Part shown: piece after piece, positions 4,678 to 29,360 of the stretch
How the letters are laid out: each line of letters opens with the position of its first letter
How positions within the stretch are numbered: the stretch's first letter is position 1
Assembly (NCBI GenBank): GCA_013042315.1
Contig: JABDQM010000040.1
Location: 1-32,068, forward strand
DNA: 32,068 bases
From: Flavobacteriaceae bacterium
GTDB lineage: Bacteria; Bacteroidota; Bacteroidia; Flavobacteriales; Flavobacteriaceae
Reading direction: 5' to 3'
Notes under the pieces: generated by a model
Told to the model about the DNA's origin: nothing
The model's input: the letters and a program-made list of their open reading frames with translations, nothing else
The model's database searches: none
Translations under genes and position numbers: made by a program

Positions 4678-5874
4678 CTAATCCTCGAAAAAACTGATCG
4701 AAGAGCCTATCCAGGAATCATTTGTCAGGTGAGAAACATTAATCATAGGGCCTTTCCCCATTCGCGTAAGGTTGACCACCGGCTTTAGCTTCCCTTCCTG
4801 CTCATTCCACACATAAAGGATGCGCAACTCAACCTTGGCGTTTTTATCTGTATTTGTTTTTACAAGGGAGGCGTAAGTGACCTTTTTCTGAAGCATATAA
4901 TTCTTCCTGTCTTCTATCGCATTGAGTAATTCCCATGTTGGCTCCAGGTTCACACCTTTCCCAGCAAAAGAGAAGAGCGGTTTGAGGACGTATTGACTTA
5001 GATCTATATCTTCGGGAATCTCATCCAGGTAGTATGAATTCGGAACGCTTTCGTGGGAAAGCATTGGCATTATGCATTTAGAGATCATAAAGAACCAATC
5101 AGGGTTGGTAATCCATTCTACATCGAGGTCGTCAAAGAGATTGAAATTTGTCTTTAGGTCTTTAAACTGATACAAATCATCAAAAATAACCCGGTTGTAT
5201 ATCCTGTTTATCCTGATTTTCCGACCGTCTTTTTCATAATACAACTGTTTCCCCTCTTTAATCACCTTCGTCATGCAAACTACCTCTATCCCGAGAGCTT
5301 GTTGAGTTGCTGAAAAATCGATCCGCGTCTTTTGCTTTTCGGGATAGATCTCCATCAGGATCACATTCTCAGGATCTTCTTCTCCCAAAATAACTTCCTT
5401 AAGGTTATTGAGGTAAGACTCTTCCGTGTGTCCCCCTAATAAATAATGAAATCCTTTCTCCGGCAGGTTTGGATAGTGTTTCTTAAATGCTTTCGCTAAA
5501 AAGGGTTGATAACAAAATAGGGAGGGGAAGGCCTGTAGTTCAATGAGCTGTGGACTTAAATTTCCCTCTTCATCCTGGCATATCCCAAAGTCGATCCCTA
5601 AAAAATGCGGGTTTCCCACGGGAGTAGGGGAATGCAAATGCTTAGGCATAAAGCGTTGCCTCACCTCTTCAAACTCGAGCTGATCCAGTTGCTCAAGGAT
5701 AGCATCACAGGCGTCGAGCACCTTTTTCTTCATCTCCCGGTCAATAAAGACCGGGGTTTCTGAAATTCGGAAGGGACATGGTTCTCCAAAAGTCTGCATG
5801 ACCTCCTGCTGCAGGCCTTCGTAATACGACTGCTTAAACCCTTCGTTAAATGTTTCTCTTATTCCGGATATCAT
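4678..5874 (-). CDS. ATP-grasp-like ligase, uncharacterised
   Basis: Contains YVLKPLFSFAGKGVNLEP and KVELRILYVW-like segments resembling ATP-grasp nucleotide-binding and metal-binding strands; start overlaps the end of the upstream gene by 4 bp. Confidence 0.6.
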   Translation of the reverse strand: MISGIRETFNEGFKQSYYEGLQQEVMQTFGEPCPFRISETPVFIDREMKKKVLDACDAILEQLDQLEFEEVRQRFMPKHLHSPTPVGNPHFLGIDFGICQDEEGNLSPQLIELQAFPSLFCYQPFLAKAFKKHYPNLPEKGFHYLLGGHTEESYLNNLKEVILGEEDPENVILMEIYPEKQKTRIDFSATQQALGIEVVCMTKVIKEGKQLYYEKDGRKIRINRIYNRVIFDDLYQFKDLKTNFNLFDDLDVEWITNPDWFFMISKCIMPMLSHESVPNSYYLDEIPEDIDLSQYVLKPLFSFAGKGVNLEPTWELLNAIEDRKNYMLQKKVTYASLVKTNTDKNAKVELRILYVWNEQEGKLKPVVNLTRMGKGPMINVSHLTNDSWIGSSISFFED

Positions 5875-6707
5875 ACAGATACAGGGATTTTGTGATCAAT
5901 GGCATCTGCAGCTTGCTGTAGAAATCTAGGGATAATTGTCCTGTTAGTCCTCAAGATCTTATCGTCATCATCGAGGTGAATCATCATATCCAGATACTTC
6001 TTTTTACCGTGGTGCTTTACAATGTGGGCTCGCTTATCTGCTCTTTTAAAATAACGCATCATCCCTTCCGAATCCGCTTCAGGGTGGAATTGCACCCCGA
6101 CAATCTCATTAGAAAACCGAATGGCCATGACGGCGCGCTCCAGCGGAACATGGGGTCTTTTCTTTTCCTTGCACAGCACCTTACACCCGAGGCTCTTCAG
6201 CCTTTTCTTTTTGGGTTTGACCACTTGGTAATCCCTGGAATCTACTGCATAGAAGGGATTTTGTAGTCCGTCGAGCAGGAACTCTAACTTTCCTTTTTTT
6301 GTTTTATGTACGGGCATGATGCCAAATGCGGTAGATTTTCTTTTGGTTACTTTAGCCAGGTTCCAATGGATCACAGCTACCTGAAAAGAATGGCAAATAA
6401 GAAAAAGGTGTTTCTTCCGTTCCTCGAGAAGGTTGTGGTCATAAACATCATCCAGGAACCTGTAAAACTTCTTTTCCCACTTCTCCCCTTTGGGTTTTGG
6501 AGAGTCCGGGCCGCCTGAGGCGATAAAAATATCAAAGTCTTCAATTTCGGGAACTTCGTGATGTACACGAACATCGAAGATCTTATAATCCCCGTTGATA
6601 TCCTCCCTACTTATAAATTGTTCTACCAGCATTTTAATACAACGCATCCCTTCGTTGGGCTGCCCCGCATTCATGTCGAGAATGGCGATCTTATATGTTG
6701 AGTGCAT
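5871..6707 (-). CDS. Class I glutamine amidotransferase (GMP-synthase-like GATase1 domain)
   Basis: Oxyanion/ASGGPDSPKP segment, nucleophile region HLFLICHSFQVAV, catalytic His-Glu in GVQFHPEADSEGM. Confidence 0.8.
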   Translation of the reverse strand: MHSTYKIAILDMNAGQPNEGMRCIKMLVEQFISREDINGDYKIFDVRVHHEVPEIEDFDIFIASGGPDSPKPKGEKWEKKFYRFLDDVYDHNLLEERKKHLFLICHSFQVAVIHWNLAKVTKRKSTAFGIMPVHKTKKGKLEFLLDGLQNPFYAVDSRDYQVVKPKKKRLKSLGCKVLCKEKKRPHVPLERAVMAIRFSNEIVGVQFHPEADSEGMMRYFKRADKRAHIVKHHGKKKYLDMMIHLDDDDKILRTNRTIIPRFLQQAADAIDHKIPVSV

Positions 6708-6765
6708 TAAATTTTTTTCTAATTCGGAGAGGTCAGGACGACGGATTGTGATTTTTTATCCAACT

Positions 6766-7863
6766 TTAAAGGCCTTTGGCCGTTTCTCCCACAATGTATT
6801 TTACAACTTCTTTCAGGTCGTTGGTTTCGTTGAATACTTTCAGCTGCCGGTCTGCCCCAGAACCCTGTTCCAGCATTTGGTAGACGTAATTCACTTCGTT
6901 TCGGCATCCCAGTTCATCAACAACATCCTCCACAAAGTCGAGCAACTCATTGATCAGAGTTTTAAACGGAACCTCTTCTTCCTTCCCAAAATCGATCAAT
7001 TTCGCTTCTATTCCCCATCGGGCCGCTCTCCATTTATTTTCGTTGATCAGAACGCGTCTGTACGATCTAAAGCTCTGGTTTTTCTGGTGAAGATTGTGGA
7101 GCTTGGCTATGATACATTGCATCAAAGCGGCGAGACACGTTACTTCTTCTACGGTCATTACCATATCGCAAACCCTGAACTCAACGGTTGGATAAAAGGG
7201 GTGTAACCTGATATCCCACCAAATCTTTTTTCCATTGTCAATACAGTTGGTCTTCACCAGCACATCGACGAATTTATCGTATTCAGCTACGCTGGAAAAG
7301 TATGGCGGTATTCCCGTCCTTGGGAACTTGTCGAAGATCTTGGAGCGGAACGACTTAAAGCCGGTATCTCTGCCTTCCCAGAATGGAGAATTAGTAGAGA
7401 GAGCGTACAGGTGTGGCAGGAAATAACGGGCCACATTCATGATCTGAAGTCCCTCTTCCCTGTTAGGGATTCCAACGTGAACATGCATGCCAAAAATAAG
7501 GTTAGACCTTGCCACGTCTTTCATTTCCGCGATCAATTCATCGTATCGCGGATTAGGTGTAATGTGTTGTTCACTCCACATAGAAAAAGGATGGGTTCCT
7601 GCAGCTGCCACTTTTAATCCCTCTTTGGATGCAAGTTCAATAACTTGCTGTCTGAGGTATGAAACCTCATCTCTGGCCTGCGTGATATTCTCACAGACAT
7701 TGGTTCCCATTTCAATGACGGATTGATGCATTTCTTCCTTGATGCGTTCTTTAAGGAGTACTTTTCCACCCTCCAGGATCTTTGACATATGAGATCTTAG
7801 TGTAAATGTCTCACTGTCCAAAATCTGAAATTCTTCTTCTATACCCAAAGTGAACTTTTTCAT
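6766..7863 (-). CDS. Carboxylate-amine ligase, glutamate-cysteine ligase GCS2 (YbdK) family
   Basis: MKKFTLGIEEEFQILD, EMGTNVCENI, GTHPFS, GMHVHVGI, WDIRLHPFYPTVEFRVCDM match the GCS2 family pattern. Confidence 0.88.
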   Translation of the reverse strand: MKKFTLGIEEEFQILDSETFTLRSHMSKILEGGKVLLKERIKEEMHQSVIEMGTNVCENITQARDEVSYLRQQVIELASKEGLKVAAAGTHPFSMWSEQHITPNPRYDELIAEMKDVARSNLIFGMHVHVGIPNREEGLQIMNVARYFLPHLYALSTNSPFWEGRDTGFKSFRSKIFDKFPRTGIPPYFSSVAEYDKFVDVLVKTNCIDNGKKIWWDIRLHPFYPTVEFRVCDMVMTVEEVTCLAALMQCIIAKLHNLHQKNQSFRSYRRVLINENKWRAARWGIEAKLIDFGKEEEVPFKTLINELLDFVEDVVDELGCRNEVNYVYQMLEQGSGADRQLKVFNETNDLKEVVKYIVGETAKGL

Positions 7864-7884
7864 GATCGCGAATTATAGGTTAGC

Positions 7885-8997
7885 TTACTTTTTCTTTGGC
7901 GGAGTCTTTTTCCCTGTCGTTTTTGATGAGGTCTTAGCGGTTGTACCTTTGGCTTTGGTTTTTCTAATCGGTGTTTTCTTCACATCTGATCTTTTAACCT
8001 GAGCTGCTGATTTCAGTGGTGGTTTAGGAATTTTTTGATTCGAAGGCGCCACACATTCCTGTACATATGTCCCCCAGGAACTGTTGTTTGAGTTATCCTT
8101 GTGTGCAATGGCTTTCTCGACGGCAAATTTTGCGGCGTGCTCCACAATCCACCTGAAATTCCCTTCTCCTACTGAATGGATATCAGCATCCGGTGCGGGA
8201 TTGCAAAAATCAATGGCGTAGGGTATTCCATTTCTTACTGCAAATTCCACAGTATTGAAATCATACCCAAGAGCTTTATTGAGTTTTATGGTATAGTCAT
8301 GGATGGTCTTCATGAGTTTCTGATGTTCTTCACCTTGGGTTTTAGGTTCCGTAACGTACCGTAAATGAAACTCGTTTCTGGGTTCATACGGCATGATATG
8401 CACGTATTTCTGACCGAGACAATACACACGGTAGTAATCATCAAAGACAATTTCCTCTTGCAACATCATTACAAGTTGGTCTGTCTCTGAGTGTTTCGCA
8501 AATAGGTCATCCGGATCATTTACCTTGTAGACACTCTTCCAACCTCCTCCTGAATGAGGTTTCATATAGGCGGGAAATCCGATGTAGTTAAAAATATATT
8601 CCCAATCCAGAGGAGCTTTAAGGTTGCGGAAAGATTTTTCGGTAGTGTCATCCGGTCTCGATTTGGATGGCAACAATATGGTTTTGGGAACAGGAACGCC
8701 AATTTGCATGGCCAGGCAGTTATTAAAGAATTTCTCATCTGCACTCCACCAAAACGGGTTATTGATCACCGCCGTACCCATAAGGGCGGCATTTTTGAGA
8801 TACGCCCTGTAAAAAGGAACTTCCTGTGAAATTCGGTCAATGATCACATGGTAGCCGTAATCGATCCCTTGCTGTACCTTGTCAATCATTACGGGTTCGG
8901 CTACTACTTTTCCCTCTCCAATTTCATTTACCTTATCAATAAAGGCCCAGGGAAAGGTGTCTTCCATTCCAAATAAAATTCCTACTTTTTTTATCAT
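7885..8997 (-). CDS. ATP-grasp (RimK/Ddl-like) protein with Lys/Thr-rich C-terminal tail
   Basis: PAYMKPHSGGGWKSVYKV, YCLGQKYVHIMPYEPR, GYDFNTVEFAVRNGIPYAIDFCNPAPDADIHSVG resemble the ATP-grasp core; C-terminal ~45 aa is basic low-complexity (KKTPIRKTKAKGTTAKTSSKTTGKKTPPKKK). Confidence 0.78.
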   Translation of the reverse strand: MIKKVGILFGMEDTFPWAFIDKVNEIGEGKVVAEPVMIDKVQQGIDYGYHVIIDRISQEVPFYRAYLKNAALMGTAVINNPFWWSADEKFFNNCLAMQIGVPVPKTILLPSKSRPDDTTEKSFRNLKAPLDWEYIFNYIGFPAYMKPHSGGGWKSVYKVNDPDDLFAKHSETDQLVMMLQEEIVFDDYYRVYCLGQKYVHIMPYEPRNEFHLRYVTEPKTQGEEHQKLMKTIHDYTIKLNKALGYDFNTVEFAVRNGIPYAIDFCNPAPDADIHSVGEGNFRWIVEHAAKFAVEKAIAHKDNSNNSSWGTYVQECVAPSNQKIPKPPLKSAAQVKRSDVKKTPIRKTKAKGTTAKTSSKTTGKKTPPKKK

Positions 8998-9015
8998 AAT
9001 TCTAAGTGTTTTAAA

Positions 9016-9726
9016 TTAAAAATATCGGCCTATGTATTCAGGAAACGCCATTTTCCACAACGGCCAGTCGTGGTCTATCCATTTTTTTTCATCATACCAA
9101 TGAGGTATGCCTTTCGACTCGAGTATCCCGGCCATATGAACATTCTTCGGCTTGCAACTATCCCAATCGGAAGTGCTGATTACCAGGTTCATATGCTGAA
9201 ATTTCCAACTCTCTTCATTCTTCATAAATTCATCCGGGCAGTTGTAATAGATCCTGATATCGTCGGATAAGGGCACAAAATTTCGGATATTAAATACCCC
9301 CGACATGGTAAACATATGCGATACCAGGTCCGGGAATCTAAAGGCAGTGTTGCCCGCATGGTATCCCCCAAAACTCACTCCGGCAACACCAATTCGATGT
9401 GAATTACACTCCCTCTGAATATAAGGAATTAGCTCGTTTTTGAGGAATTGCATGTACAATTCGTAATTGTGGATCTTGGTTTCCGAAGACATATTCTCCG
9501 CGTAGAAACTCATGCCGTCAATTGTTTCTACATTGTACAATTTGATTTTCCCCTCCTCTACAAAGTTCATAACTGAACCATTGAGGCCAAAATCGTTGTT
9601 TTGTGTAAAACTTCCGTAAGAAGATGGAAACATCAATATGGGATATCCCCAATGCCCGGTAATTTCCAGATTTATATTTCGTTCCAGAGTATTAGAATAA
9701 TACTGAATGTATTGGATGGATGCCAT
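9016..9726 (-). CDS. Alpha/beta-hydrolase, esterase D-like
   Basis: Nucleophile elbow GVSFGG, HMFTMSGVFNIR, catalytic-His-like IDHDWPLWKMAFPEYI. Confidence 0.8.
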   Translation of the reverse strand: MASIQYIQYYSNTLERNINLEITGHWGYPILMFPSSYGSFTQNNDFGLNGSVMNFVEEGKIKLYNVETIDGMSFYAENMSSETKIHNYELYMQFLKNELIPYIQRECNSHRIGVAGVSFGGYHAGNTAFRFPDLVSHMFTMSGVFNIRNFVPLSDDIRIYYNCPDEFMKNEESWKFQHMNLVISTSDWDSCKPKNVHMAGILESKGIPHWYDEKKWIDHDWPLWKMAFPEYIGRYF

Positions 9727-9852
9727 AAGATAATGTAACCTAAATTCTTAAGTATACCAATAAAATTTTGGTGCGCAAAGATATTTTATTTTTGGATATA
9801 CTCTGCTTAAATTCAGCGGATTCCTTATACTTGCTCCCTTTAAAATGACAGA

Positions 9853-10686
9853 ATGATTTTCAATGTTGATCTCATCAGTTTAAAAGGATCGTTTTTTTCT
9901 AACAATTTAAAACGGAAAGTCCGATTCAGGTTGGTGGCTCCACCTTCTTTCAGAAACTCTGACACCCGCTTTCCGGTACTCCTGATGAATGATGGGCAAG
10001 ATTTCACCGCCTTAGGTTTGGAGCAAATTATAACGGAATCTTACCGGGACAAGAAACAAATGCCTTTTCTGTACGTAGGTCTCGAGACCGACGAAAACAG
10101 AATGAAAGAATACGGCACTTCAGGTATTCCTGACTTCAAAGGACGAGGCGAGAAAGCCGTTTTGTATTCGCGCTTCGTAACCGAAGAGTTTATCCCATTT
10201 TTACAGAAAGAATTCAGGGCGAGTTCTCATAAGGAAGAATGGGTGTTCTGCGGTATGTCGCTGGGCGGACTTTCAGCATTTGACATTGTTTATAACCATC
10301 CCGGCTTATTTGGAAAAGCAGGGGTTTTCAGTGGGTCGTTCTGGTGGCGTAAAAAAGCTTATACCCGAAAAGATCCGGAAGACCGAAGTCGTATCGTGCT
10401 AGATATGGTAAAAGAAGGTGTCTATTCCCCTCATCTCTCCTTTTGGCTCATGTGCGGTACGCATGATGAGAAGGCAGACCGAAATCACAACGGGGTTATT
10501 GATTCTATAGACGACACCCTCGACCTCATAAAAGAACTCCAATTAAAGGGATATTCCTATCCGGGCAAGATCAGTTATGTAGAAGTCCCCGGAGGAAAGC
10601 ACGACCTGCCCACCTGGTCTCATGTATTTCCCCATTTCCTGAAATGGGCATTTTCTAAGAAAATCTCTTCGGCCACAGATCAATAA
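9853..10686 (+). CDS. Alpha/beta-hydrolase, esterase family, with EF-hand-like loop
   Basis: GMSLGGLSAFD nucleophile elbow, GVFSGSFWWR, PGGKHDLPTWSHVFPHFLKW; divergent from the esterase at 9016-9726. Confidence 0.82.
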   Translation: MIFNVDLISLKGSFFSNNLKRKVRFRLVAPPSFRNSDTRFPVLLMNDGQDFTALGLEQIITESYRDKKQMPFLYVGLETDENRMKEYGTSGIPDFKGRGEKAVLYSRFVTEEFIPFLQKEFRASSHKEEWVFCGMSLGGLSAFDIVYNHPGLFGKAGVFSGSFWWRKKAYTRKDPEDRSRIVLDMVKEGVYSPHLSFWLMCGTHDEKADRNHNGVIDSIDDTLDLIKELQLKGYSYPGKISYVEVPGGKHDLPTWSHVFPHFLKWAFSKKISSATDQ

Positions 10687-10696
10687 CGGTGTTTTA

Positions 10697-11785
10697 CTAA
10701 ACCTTTATAAATATCTTTCTCCGATACATAAAAAGGGCAAGGAGTAAATAAAAACCCGTTACAGAAAGGCCGTAAAGGAGCGAAGACAACTCTCCTGACA
10801 GGAAGGAATGGACGTAGATGTTCTTGTACAACCAGCCATGTAATGATAGTCCTTCCTCTATCTGAACAGAGTAGAAGATTTTCGTGATAAAGCTCGAGAG
10901 GAAATACAGGGTGATGGCATTGGCCCCGGTATATCTGAAAATACTACCGAACTGTATGCCTTTTACATCCGTCAGATAATAAATAAGGGAGAGGAAAATG
11001 TTGGCCCATCCGGCTGTTACTAAGACAAAGCTACTAGACCACAAGGCCTTGTTGATGGGAAATGCCAGGTCCCAAAGATACCCCAGAAGCAGCATCCCTG
11101 CACCCAGGGCCAGAAGCATTAGCTCCTTTTTTGCCCGTTTTGAAATCAGGAGGAGTCCGGTGAAAATCCCGAGAAGGGAAGAGGCAATCGACGGCAAGGT
11201 GCTAAGCAGGCCTTCGGGATCGTAATCCTCCTTGTACATATGACTTCCAAAAACCTGCAAGTCGACATAATTAGCCCAATTATTTGGCGCCCTATCAAAG
11301 GTCGGGACATCCCCATTAATAGGAATAAATCCCAGCCAAATCCAGTATCCTGCAAGAATGGCAATGGTAATCCCTAGAATTACTTTCCAGTTGAAATTGA
11401 GAAAAATTACCGCTGCAAAGAAGAAAGCTACACCAATACGCTGCAAGACACCGGGAAATCTGATCTCAGAAAAATCCTTAAAGAAGGGAAATGAGATGGT
11501 AAATGCACCCAGGAATAACCCAAGGCCAATTAGTTTAAGTGTACGAATGCTTATTTTCTTGTATGTAGCGGGATTCGGTTCTTTATTTCGGTAGGCAAAT
11601 ACAATGGAAGTCCCAACGATAAAAAGGAAAAAGGGAAAGACAAGGTCGGTTGGAGTATACCCATGCCAATCTGCATGTCGCAACGGCGGATAAATGTACT
11701 CCCAGGTGCCTGGAGTATTTACCAATATCATCAAGGCTATGGTTAAGCCCCTGAAAATGTCTACAGATACGATCCTTTCCTTCAT
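10697..11785 (-). CDS. DUF5009 / heparan-alpha-glucosaminide N-acetyltransferase-like membrane protein (NagX-like)
   Basis: RIVSVDIFRGLTIALMILVNTPGTWEYIYPPLRHADWHGYTPTDLVFPFFLFIVGTSI is characteristic; multiple TM segments. Confidence 0.88.
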   Translation of the reverse strand: MKERIVSVDIFRGLTIALMILVNTPGTWEYIYPPLRHADWHGYTPTDLVFPFFLFIVGTSIVFAYRNKEPNPATYKKISIRTLKLIGLGLFLGAFTISFPFFKDFSEIRFPGVLQRIGVAFFFAAVIFLNFNWKVILGITIAILAGYWIWLGFIPINGDVPTFDRAPNNWANYVDLQVFGSHMYKEDYDPEGLLSTLPSIASSLLGIFTGLLLISKRAKKELMLLALGAGMLLLGYLWDLAFPINKALWSSSFVLVTAGWANIFLSLIYYLTDVKGIQFGSIFRYTGANAITLYFLSSFITKIFYSVQIEEGLSLHGWLYKNIYVHSFLSGELSSLLYGLSVTGFYLLLALFMYRRKIFIKV

Positions 11786-11790
11786 AGCGA

Positions 11791-13602
11791 TTATAGAATT
11801 GTTCCTTTCATTTTATTCCAGACCCTGGCCAGCAAGAATCCTGAGATCAGAGCCACTACCGTCAAAATACTTGCAGGCATTGTCTTTCCATAGATCCAAT
11901 AACCGGTGGCAAACATGATGGTGTAAATCAGGACACAACCCAATAACATAGCGGCAATTCCGGAAGGGACACTCCACTTTTCATTGGTGTTAATGATTCG
12001 CTGTTTATCCTCTTCAGCCTCTCTGACTACTTTTGCCCAGCCCGGTCCACCGGGTTGAATTTTCATGTAGAAGGAGCGGAGTACTTCCTTGGATTCTGGT
12101 TGGGTTAAAAAGGTAGCAGCCATCCAGATGGCAGTTGTGACAATTACCACAAAGATATATTCGGACCAATCAGGGAAAACGCCAGTTTCCGAAGCAAAAA
12201 GAAAGGCTCCAACGGGTGTGAGTTTTAAAACCAGGGAGATAATTCCCGAAGCGAACATCGCTGTTATTTCACTCCAGGCATTGATTCGCCACCAAAACCA
12301 TCGCAAAATAAAAATCAAGCCCGTCCCGGCACCGAAAACCAACAAAACCTCAAACAATTGCAGGGCATTTTGCAAGAGCAATGCCAATGCAGCACTAAAT
12401 ACCATAAGTATTACTGTTGAGATCCGGCCTACTGCCACTAATCGTTTTTCTGAGGCCTTAGGGTTTATCTGTTGCTTGTAAAAATCATAGACAATATAGG
12501 AAGATCCCCAATTGAGCTGGGTAGAGATCGTAGACATGTAGGCCGCAATGAGGGAAGCCAAAACGAGGCCAAGTAAACCGCTGGGAAGTTTTGTGAGCAT
12601 GGCGGAATAGGCCAGGTCGTGCCCTAATTTATCGTCGGCAATGCTCGGGAAGGCTTCCTGAATACTAGCCACATCAGGGTAGACCACAAGGGATGCCAGG
12701 GCTACAAGAATCCACGGCCATGGCCGCAGGGCATAGTGCATGATATTAAAGAAAAAGGTGGCGCCTATGGCGTGATTTTCATTTTTTGCGGCCAACATTC
12801 GTTGGGCAATATAGCCTCCTCCGCCCGGTTCGGCGCCCGGGTACCAGGAGCTCCACCACTGCACCGCCAGAGGAATGATAAAAAGCGTGATCAGGGCTTG
12901 TGTATTACTAAAATCGGGGAGAATAGAGAGTTTGTCAGTGACATTTTCATTCGCCATCAGTGCTTTTATCCCTCCTACTTCAGGTATGTTGACCAAATAG
13001 TAAGCCGCACCAATTGCCCCTGCCATCGCGACAAAAAATAAGAGGAAATCGGTATAAACCACGCCCTTGAATCCTCCGAGGGCACTAAAAATTACCGTAA
13101 TCAGTCCGGCGCTGACTACCGTTTGCCAGGGTTCAAGACCCAGCATAATTCCCCCGATCTTAATCGCTGCAAGGGTTACAGCAGACATCGTAATAACGTT
13201 AAAGATAACTCCCAGATAGATGGATCTGAACTTTCTGAGAAAGCTGGCTGCTGCCCCTCCATACCGAAGTTCGTAAAATTCAAGATCGGTATTTACATTA
13301 CTCTTCCTCCACAATTTGGCGTAGACAAAAACCGTAAGAAGCCCGGTAATAAGGAAAGCCCACCATACCCAGTTGCCCGATACCCCATTTGTACGAACAA
13401 TATCGGTGACCAAATTAGGCGTATCAGTAGAAAATGTTGTGGCCACCATGGATAATCCGAGTAACCACCAGGGCATAGTCCTTCCACTGAGAAAAAACTC
13501 GGAAGTATTCTTCCCGGATTTTTTAGAAACAATAATCCCAATGGCCAGAACTGTAGAAAAGAAAACAATGATAAAAATATAATCGAGAGTACCGATTTCC
13601 AT
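11791..13602 (-). CDS. Sodium:solute symporter (SSS family)
   Basis: GTLDYIFIIVFFSTVLAIGIIVSKKSGKNTSEFFLSGRTMPWWLLGLSMVATTFSTDTP; many TM helices. Confidence 0.92.
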   Translation of the reverse strand: MEIGTLDYIFIIVFFSTVLAIGIIVSKKSGKNTSEFFLSGRTMPWWLLGLSMVATTFSTDTPNLVTDIVRTNGVSGNWVWWAFLITGLLTVFVYAKLWRKSNVNTDLEFYELRYGGAAASFLRKFRSIYLGVIFNVITMSAVTLAAIKIGGIMLGLEPWQTVVSAGLITVIFSALGGFKGVVYTDFLLFFVAMAGAIGAAYYLVNIPEVGGIKALMANENVTDKLSILPDFSNTQALITLFIIPLAVQWWSSWYPGAEPGGGGYIAQRMLAAKNENHAIGATFFFNIMHYALRPWPWILVALASLVVYPDVASIQEAFPSIADDKLGHDLAYSAMLTKLPSGLLGLVLASLIAAYMSTISTQLNWGSSYIVYDFYKQQINPKASEKRLVAVGRISTVILMVFSAALALLLQNALQLFEVLLVFGAGTGLIFILRWFWWRINAWSEITAMFASGIISLVLKLTPVGAFLFASETGVFPDWSEYIFVVIVTTAIWMAATFLTQPESKEVLRSFYMKIQPGGPGWAKVVREAEEDKQRIINTNEKWSVPSGIAAMLLGCVLIYTIMFATGYWIYGKTMPASILTVVALISGFLLARVWNKMKGTIL

Positions 13603-17584: not shown

Positions 17585-17719
17585 ATGAAACCGCTAAGCA
17601 AATTTATACCCTTTAACCTGGGCAGATTAGAATCCGGATATTCCTATACTCTTATGTTTCACTATCTTGGCGGCTGTTATCATTGCTCAGAAAAGCAACC
17701 CAACCACAACTCATGGTAA
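17585..17719 (+). CDS. Possible 44-aa leader ORF overlapping the sigma-factor start
   Basis: ATG 17585: MKPLSKFIPFNLGRLESGYSYTLMFHYLGGCYHCSEKQPNHNSW*; stop TAA (17717-17719) lies inside the first codons of the sigma-factor ATG at 17713. Confidence 0.3.
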   Translation: MKPLSKFIPFNLGRLESGYSYTLMFHYLGGCYHCSEKQPNHNSW

Positions 17720-18345
17720 CTATACTTAGAAAATTATTTCTGGTAGTCATTGGAGAGCGGAATAAATCTTCCCTCGACAAGGATCATCCCTTCCGGGGTC
17801 TCTCGGATGAGGAATTGGTGGAGAAGATTGTAGAGACTAACAACACTTTACTTTTTGGGATCATTTACGATAGGTATGCAGACAAGGTTTATACCAAGTG
17901 TACCGGTTTTGCCCGTTCAGACGATGAGGCAGAAGACCTTACCCAGGATGTTTTCCTGACCATTTTTGTCAAGTTGGGCAGCTTTAAGGGCATCTCTAAA
18001 TTCTCTAGCTGGGTCTATTCCATTACCTACAACTTTTGTGTCAACTATATCACCCGCAATAAAGGGCGAAAGATCAGTGAGCAATCAGAAAAATTTGACG
18101 GTATGCAGCATCAATTGGCTGTTGAGGCAGAAGACCGTAGTTTCTTTCACATGCGTTCTGATAAATTAAAGATTGTATTGGAACAAATTCCGCCGGAGGA
18201 CAAAACCCTGCTGCTCCTCAAATACCAGGACGACGTACCGGTAAAAGATTTATGCGCCCTTTTAGACCTTGGTGAAAGCGCTGTAAAAATGAGATTGAAA
18301 AGAGCCAAGGCAAAAACATTAGCAACCTATAATGCACTCCCCTGA
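17713..18345 (+). CDS. RNA polymerase sigma factor, sigma-70/ECF type
   Basis: LFGIIYDRYADKVYTKCTGFARSDDEAEDLTQDVFLTIFVKLGSFKGISKFSSWVYSITYNFCVNYITR (region 2) and VPVKDLCALLDLGESAVKMRLKRAKAKT (region 4). ATG 17713 preferred over the track's TTG at 17683. Confidence 0.9.
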   Translation: MVTILRKLFLVVIGERNKSSLDKDHPFRGLSDEELVEKIVETNNTLLFGIIYDRYADKVYTKCTGFARSDDEAEDLTQDVFLTIFVKLGSFKGISKFSSWVYSITYNFCVNYITRNKGRKISEQSEKFDGMQHQLAVEAEDRSFFHMRSDKLKIVLEQIPPEDKTLLLLKYQDDVPVKDLCALLDLGESAVKMRLKRAKAKTLATYNALP

Positions 18346-27539: not shown

Positions 27540-29360
27540 GTGAGAACGCAGACATGGTACATCTTGATTTTTATTTTCCTGTTTGAAGGAACAGGGCAAG
27601 TATTGGCTCAAAACCAAAGTTTGGCAGATAGTCTTATATTAAGATTGAAGGAGCATAGAGGCTCGAATGACAGCCTTCCCCTTAATTGGTTATCAAAGAT
27701 CTCTTTTAACCATAATAAGCCCGATAGTGCGTTGTATTATGCACGCCAATTAATGTCTGAAACTGATGACCCTTATTGGTTATTACAGGCACACTATAAT
27801 GAAGGGTCTGCCCTGCGTATTATGGGTAACCTGGAAGGCTCCCTCCAATCGTATTTTAAAAGCCTTGAGTACGCTCAGCAATTGGGTGACAAAAAAAGGG
27901 AAGGTAATGCCTATATAGCGATCGGGGATGTCTATTCGGTATCCGGCGCCCATAAGAATTCTACCGATTATTATTCCAAATCTATCCCAATATTCAGGGA
28001 AATAAAAGATTCGGTAAAACTGGCTACTGCATTGTTCAATGCCGGTGATGAATATCTCAATCAGGATAGTCTTGTTACCGCTGTTACTCATTTCAACGAA
28101 TCTGCACAGCTTTTTGGACTCCTTGGATACGCCATAGGCGTGGCATATAACCTGGGGAACATGGGCTTGGTCTATGCCATGCAAGGCAATGATGCTTTGG
28201 CCCTCGATAATATCAATGAGGCTATCACCCTCCTTGAGAAACAAAAAGACTATTATGGAATTGCGGCATATCTCACGTTTATGTCTGATGTTTACATCAA
28301 CAAGGGCGATCTTCCTGCCGCCCTGGATTATGCTGAGCGGAGCCTTAAACTGGCTTCGGATTATGGTCTGAAAGATCAAATGAGCGAAACCAATCTGAGG
28401 CTGTCCACGCTACACGAGCAAATGGGGAATGCTGATAGATCTTATAAATATTATAAAGACCATATCGCCTTTCGCGACAGTGTAAGAAATATGGAGTCGA
28501 TTCAACAAATGGCCGATCTGGAAACAAAATACCAGGTAGAACAAAAAGAAGCTGAAAAGGAGGCGGAAATTGCAATCGTTAATCAACAAAAAAGGAACCA
28601 GCGAATTATTGCAGTGGCGACGGTGTTTTTGATAGGAATATTTGCAGTTGGACTTTATAGAAGGAATAAATTTATTCAAAAAACAAAGCGGATCATTGAA
28701 AAGGAGAGAGATAGGTCTGAGGCTTTGCTGCTCAACATACTGCCAGAAGAAATCGCCGAAGAACTTAAAGCCAATGGGAAAGCTGAAGCTCGTGAGTTTG
28801 ATCAAGTCTCTATTCTGTTTTCCGATTTTAAGGAATTTACCCAAACCGCCGAAAAGTTATCCGCCAAAGAATTGGTAAGTGAAATCAATCATTGTTTCAA
28901 AGCCTTTGATCTTATCTGTGAAAGATTTGATTTGGAAAAAATAAAGACCATAGGGGATGCCTTTATGGCTGCGGGCGGACTTCCGGTGCCCTCGAATGTA
29001 GCGGTAAAAAATATTGTCCTGGCGGGGCTCGAAATGCAACGCTTTATTGTGGAACGAAAAATACAAATGGACACCGAAGGAAAACCGGCTTTCGAAATGC
29101 GTCTGGGTATCCATACCGGCCCTGTGGTGGCTGGCATTGTCGGGGTCAAAAAGTTTCAGTACGACTTATGGGGTGATACCGTAAATACAGCTTCCCGGAT
29201 GGAGAGCAACAGTGAAGTGGGAAAGGTTAACATTTCCCAGCACACCTATGAGCTATTGCAGGATGATCCTGATCTGAAATTTGAGAAAAGAGGAAAGGTA
29301 GAAGTAAAGGGAAAAGGAGCAATGGAAATGTATTTTGTAAGCCTCAAAACCGCAGCCTGA
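27540..29360 (+). CDS. TPR-containing transmembrane adenylate/guanylate cyclase
   Basis: Signal/TM N-terminus (GTG start), TPR repeats, TM IIAVATVFLIGIFAVGLYRR, class III cyclase domain SILFSDFKEFTQTAEKLS, KIKTIGDAFMAAGG, DLWGDTVNTASRMES. Confidence 0.9.
   Translation: MRTQTWYILIFIFLFEGTGQVLAQNQSLADSLILRLKEHRGSNDSLPLNWLSKISFNHNKPDSALYYARQLMSETDDPYWLLQAHYNEGSALRIMGNLEGSLQSYFKSLEYAQQLGDKKREGNAYIAIGDVYSVSGAHKNSTDYYSKSIPIFREIKDSVKLATALFNAGDEYLNQDSLVTAVTHFNESAQLFGLLGYAIGVAYNLGNMGLVYAMQGNDALALDNINEAITLLEKQKDYYGIAAYLTFMSDVYINKGDLPAALDYAERSLKLASDYGLKDQMSETNLRLSTLHEQMGNADRSYKYYKDHIAFRDSVRNMESIQQMADLETKYQVEQKEAEKEAEIAIVNQQKRNQRIIAVATVFLIGIFAVGLYRRNKFIQKTKRIIEKERDRSEALLLNILPEEIAEELKANGKAEAREFDQVSILFSDFKEFTQTAEKLSAKELVSEINHCFKAFDLICERFDLEKIKTIGDAFMAAGGLPVPSNVAVKNIVLAGLEMQRFIVERKIQMDTEGKPAFEMRLGIHTGPVVAGIVGVKKFQYDLWGDTVNTASRMESNSEVGKVNISQHTYELLQDDPDLKFEKRGKVEVKGKGAMEMYFVSLKTAA

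Follow-up and report, generated by a model that had tools for sequence, protein, structure and literature searches.

What do six adjacent genes at positions 4678-10686 of a 32,068-nt stretch of DNA from a Flavobacteriaceae bacterium (GenBank assembly GCA_013042315.1, contig JABDQM010000040.1, positions 1 to 32,068; hereafter the window) make or modify? Five of them, termed E, D, C, B and A in the order of transcription, form a compact run on the minus strand, and the sixth, F, is divergent from it. Three genes of the run (C, D and A) encode ATP-dependent ligases of different folds. On balance, we think it probable that the locus specifies a stand-alone amide-ligase pathway for the synthesis and turnover of a peptide-amine conjugate or a small peptide of non-ribosomal origin. 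An earlier note on this DNA, made from the sequence alone, had proposed an amide-ligase biosynthetic unit with hydrolases, and the protein families, the gene packing, the conserved gene order and the co-occurrence of the genes described below support that proposal. The source is a draft assembly (2.9 Mb, 399 contigs) with 94% completeness and 8% contamination.

Three ligases of different folds in one operon

Gene A (4678-5874, minus strand) encodes a 398-aa protein that generated no Pfam or NCBIfam match of its own in profile scans and did not reach the gathering threshold of PF03738 (GSP_synth), a profile matched by 21 of 45 gene A orthologues (best, 9.6e-6). In hhalign, gene A aligned with E. 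coli YgiC at E 6.6e-6. The AlphaFold model (pLDDT 91.3, pTM 0.91) produced 34 Foldseek matches at E <= 2.3e-7, all with one fold, the circularly permuted (CP) ATP-grasp of glutathione synthetase (GSS) and glutathionylspermidine synthetase (GspS). The matches comprised glutathione, homoglutathione, glutathionylspermidine and trypanothione synthetases, effector-type homologues of the first two, YgiC, YjfC, 3n6x and the amide ligase Cp1B. The earlier label "ATP-grasp-like" for gene A can be narrowed to the CP fold of GSS, GspS and YgiC.

Aligned to Gss, gene A retains the catalytic Glu (E112) and the ATP lysines K266 and K298. It has the fold, the catalytic Glu and both ATP lysines in common with E. 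coli YgiC/YjfC and Gss, but differs from them in its ~14% identity, detection below the Pfam threshold, an invariant Gln in place of the Mg-ligand Asn, the lack of a fused amidase, and its location in a multi-ligase operon. Eukaryotic glutathione and homoglutathione synthetases show the same fold (query-normalised TM-score ~0.6), although their sequence identity to gene A is 8-15%. The closest named relative of gene A among the matches listed was from Muriicola marianensis (80%). Because YgiC and YjfC are reported to be peptide-spermidine ligases (Pederick et al. 2023, as cited in PMC12568646), gene A likely encodes an amide ligase by analogy. Pfam scans of genes A-F and the adjacent genes for components of the CP-ATP-grasp/alpha-E tagging system (COG2307/COG2308) generated no match to alpha-E or NTN peptidase.

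In one genus, gene A also forms the rear part of an in-frame fusion to a sodium-solute symporter (867 aa; L056:6637-9240, plus strand). Further open frames of 875, 591 and 535 aa were seen in genomes G125, G391 and G273, and in locus L058, from a related genus, the symporter is encoded directly beside gene A.

Gene C (6766-7863, minus strand) is clearly assigned by sequence profiles to the YbdK/GCS2 carboxylate-amine ligases, which have the glutamine-synthetase fold. It matched PF04107 (GCS2) at 3e-68 (230.6 bits against a cut-off of 21 bits) and NCBIfam PRK13515 (NF010039) with 553.6 bits against a cut-off of 371, and passed the cut-off of TIGR02050 as well. The GhExE metal/ATP signature defined in PMC2588565 is present as LGIEEEF at residues 6-12, and its G and Glu residues (GxExE) were conserved in an alignment of 25 sequences. 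Gene C groups with the YbdK-family ligases in these profiles, but sits in a dedicated multi-ligase operon. Its product probably activates a gamma-glutamyl-type carboxylate.

Gene D (7885-8997, minus strand) was matched by RimK-family profiles only (3e-7), and its TIGR00768 score of 30 bits lay far under the cut-off of 143.4 bits. Foldseek with the gene D model found Ddl (1e-13), LysX/ArgX, RimK and graspetide ligases, including MdnC, PsnB and one from Chryseobacterium. Conserved ATP-grasp motifs are K146-P-x-x-G-G-G-W, Q180-E181, E251, D263 and N266, and the metal motif, D-F-C-N, is one residue longer than E-x-N. Judged from its model, the gene D product is an ATP-grasp protein of the Ddl/RimK/LysX type; it has the fold of these ligases in common with them, but belongs to a distinct family with the D-F-x-N-P-A-P motif. 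Catalytic residues of the ligases, the loss of which the earlier note had considered, are thus retained.

The five genes of the run are separated by 18 bp (E/D), 21 bp (D/C) and 58 bp (C/B), B and A overlap by 4 bp, and a convergent riboflavin synthase gene lies 10 bp downstream of the end of A. Open reading frame coordinates bear out the five packed minus-strand genes and the divergent esterase gene described previously, and the families named at that time (GCS2 for C, GATase for B, esterase for E and F, ATP-grasp for D) agreed with the profile and fold searches.

The spacing bears on one reading of gene D. Its Foldseek matches to MdnC, PsnB and the Chryseobacterium graspetide ligase would fit a graspetide, i.e. 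a ribosomal peptide cyclised by an ATP-grasp enzyme. Yet no precursor gene was found, the largest gap inside the run (58 bp) leaves no room for one, nor do the 10 bp below A, and GCS2 and glutathione-synthetase-fold partners would be atypical of such a locus. We regard a graspetide as very improbable.

A second reading of gene D starts from its resemblance to RimK and LysX/ArgX and from its C-terminus. The gene D product in the window ends in a lysine/alanine/threonine-rich, histone-H1-like tail, and such lysine/alanine-rich tails, of up to 110 residues, were present in 32 of 88 D orthologues. On this reading the D product would add residues to a protein as RimK does, A, C and the hydrolases would alter or erase the modification, and the lysine-rich tails would direct D to polyanions. 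However, most D proteins have no tail, neither a conserved small tag nor a carrier protein is encoded in the operon, and two further ligases and two esterases better suit a metabolite. Protein or peptide tagging therefore seems to us quite unlikely, and an amide-ligase pathway to a small molecule is preferred in the following.

Retention of the ligase genes across Bacteroidota

Among 396 Bacteroidota genomes sampled for co-occurrence, 246 carried none of genes A-D, 64 carried all four, and 41 carried A, C and D without B. The three-ligase set is thus kept as a unit in about a quarter of this broad sample (105 of 396), and was found in ~25 of the sampled families. Genomes with gene A rarely lacked C (5 of 114) or D (4 of 114), and pairwise Fisher tests for A, C and D gave p values of ~1e-60 or smaller with no correction for phylogeny. 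In several families the three genes lie far apart yet all are kept; in the single-contig genome G043, A is located at 1.23 Mb, C at 0.74 Mb and D at 0.48 Mb. That A, C and D are kept even when unlinked speaks most strongly for a single pathway.

The presence of A, C and D is near all-or-none, and the gene arrangement is far from chance. Retention this deep and near all-or-none points to a core metabolite and not to an antibiotic confined to particular strains. The emphasis of the earlier note on Flavobacteriaceae was misplaced: the system is common across the phylum Bacteroidota but patchy in the family of the window, where gene D was found in 7 of 8 other genomes of the genus and in few other genera. 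Plasmid searches with genes D and A returned no matches. A role in anti-phage defence was also considered and rejected, as PADLOC gave no meaningful match.

All or much of the order E-D-C-B-A was found in most of 80 named loci and in many of 40 loci across the phylum. Maribacter-type loci and Dyadobacter/Hymenobacter have the arrangement F/E-D-C-B-A, and the gene order was also seen in Spirosoma. In Chryseobacterium, Epilithonimonas and Elizabethkingia the arrangement is F-M17-third ATP-grasp-E-D-C-B-A, and F is co-directional with the ligase genes in the Chryseobacterium-type operons. Whether the order extends beyond close relatives had been raised in the earlier note; it does, and is shared by Maribacter, Chryseobacterium, Dyadobacter and Spirosoma alike. 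The third ATP-grasp gene (dipeptide-ligase-like; dapdiamide/carnosine-synthase-like) and the M17 leucyl aminopeptidase gene occur in loci L034, L035, L108-L130 and others; the third ATP-grasp was not found in the genome of the window, the assembly of which is incomplete. In the named loci, median gaps were 30-73 bp and the distance matrices of A, B, C and D correlated with r of 0.84-0.96. Because the gaps are small and the distance matrices correlate, the genes of the operon appear to have been inherited together.

In those genomes with D and B but without A that were examined (L087-L089, L091), which come from families that have no gene A, a PF14403 CP ATP-grasp protein of 450-470 aa is encoded between D and B, together with esterases. 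Its profile similarity to gene A was borderline. The location of this protein beside D and B where A is absent suggests that an equivalent ligase fills the slot.

Gene B in a variable slot

Gene B (5871-6707, minus strand) encodes a class-I glutamine-amidotransferase-like protein, which matched PF00117 (GATase) at 2.9e-9 (37.3 bits against a cut-off of 22.8 bits). The Cys-His-Glu triad, C105, H208 and E210, was invariant among 35 gene B sequences, and the best PDB profile match was homoserine O-succinyltransferase (2e-4). The earlier note had assigned ammonia supply to gene B. If B were a true glutaminase subunit feeding A (cf. GatD/MurT), the product of the pathway would be an amide, and the retained triad, the 4-bp overlap with A in the window and the adjacency of B and A in most loci are consistent with this.

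However, gene B is dispensable, being absent from 41 of the 105 genomes with A, C and D. An M29 aminopeptidase of one subfamily was found at high identity in 8 of 41 B-lacking genomes but in none of 39 genomes that carry B (p 0.005), and in most of the eight it is placed between C and A, that is, in the slot of B. In other loci an Amidohydro_3 protein is encoded beside gene A. The ligase slots are thus constant and the hydrolase slot varies, which, together with the best PDB profile match of B, argues against an obligatory ammonia supply; ammonia-dependent amidation is judged unlikely. Gene B appears rather to provide a hydrolytic or accessory step of the amide-ligase pathway that another enzyme can take over.

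Proposed pathway and candidate products

Genes E (9016-9726, minus strand) and F (9853-10686, plus strand) encode serine hydrolases of the PF00756 esterase family (5e-9 and 3e-23, respectively). The catalytic residues S118, D189 and H219 of E and S136 and H250 of F were invariant among 61 sequences. We infer that A, C and D act in series on one product and that B, E and F serve its turnover. In this scheme, the order of the steps being equally provisional, C, D and A would each spend ATP on forming a carboxyl phosphate, which an amine would attack to give an amide bond. Successive amide formation by the three ligases would yield a short non-ribosomal peptide or a peptide-amine conjugate, with neither carrier proteins nor a ribosomal precursor. 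Intermediates or the product may be trimmed, released or recycled by the Cys-dependent B protein (in other lineages by an M29 or M17 aminopeptidase) and by the serine hydrolases E and F.

The most specific hypothesis that the folds suggest is that C, D and A make a hitherto unrecognised Bacteroidota metabolite resembling glutathione or glutathionylspermidine, which would have its own turnover enzymes and be present beside bacillithiol; the details are speculative, and we hold this form of the pathway only as a possibility, more doubtful than not. Here C would form a gamma-glutamyl dipeptide, D or A would extend it, and A would add glycine or a polyamine; B, M17 or M29, E and F would be a gamma-glutamyl hydrolase, a Cys-Gly-type dipeptidase and S-acyl (thio)esterases. 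The confinement of the fold matches of A to GSS, GspS, trypanothione synthetase, YgiC/YjfC, 3n6x and Cp1B, the reported activity of YgiC/YjfC, and the M17 and M29 aminopeptidases in or beside the operons are in its favour. Glutathione synthetase pairs with glutamate-cysteine ligase, and gene A is likewise accompanied by a GCS2 ligase. PF00756, the family of E and F, also includes S-formylglutathione hydrolase.

On the other side, fold does not fix substrate, as Cp1B, with the same fold, makes E-64, and no feature specific to polyamines or to cysteine came to light. A further difference from eukaryotic glutathione synthetase is that the host organisms already carry bacillithiol genes: 79 of the 80 genomes tested had bshC, whether or not they had the cluster. 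A replacement thiol for bacillithiol was ruled out on the same count.

Several points weigh against the amide-ligase pathway as a whole. It is predicted here from genes, folds and co-occurrence, and its substrates and product are hypothetical. The co-occurrence p values ignore shared ancestry, which inflates them. In gene A, the Mg-binding Asn of characterised relatives is replaced by the invariant Gln114. The D product could act, like RimK, on the C-terminus of a protein instead of on a small molecule. The E. coli member of the gene C family has only weak gamma-glutamylcysteine ligase activity, and a gamma-glutamyl product is for this reason an assumption.

Relation to predicted amidoligase neighbourhoods

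Comparative work by Iyer et al. in 2009 reportedly predicted amidoligase neighbourhoods in which ATP-grasp and glutamine-synthetase-like ligases occur with peptidases, and proposed peptide synthesis for them. These neighbourhoods reportedly also place several stand-alone amide ligases of different folds beside peptidases and a GATase-like thiol hydrolase. We know of no product assigned to such neighbourhoods. A search of PMC open-access text, which excludes Iyer et al. 2009, found no description of the gene arrangement reported here. Were the product of this arrangement identified, a predicted amidoligase neighbourhood would become a concrete pathway, and a distinct family with the glutathione-synthetase fold would gain a substrate. 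The operon is present in the culturable genera Chryseobacterium, Dyadobacter and Spirosoma.

Intergenic and flanking regions

The starts of E and F are separated by 126 bp (9727-9852), presumed to be a promoter region. No convincing promoter motif was found between E and F, and promoter and terminator scans were uninformative. A search of the window for riboswitches and structured RNAs yielded only a tRNA. Elsewhere in the window are two features unrelated to the operon, a gene for a TPR-adenylate/guanylate cyclase fusion (27540-29360) and a gene for a sigma-70-like (ECF-type) sigma factor (17683-18345). Downstream of F, at 10697-13602, the window encodes a NagX-like membrane acetyltransferase and a sodium-solute symporter, and this arrangement of acetyltransferase and symporter is repeated in five named Maribacter/Muriicola-type loci.

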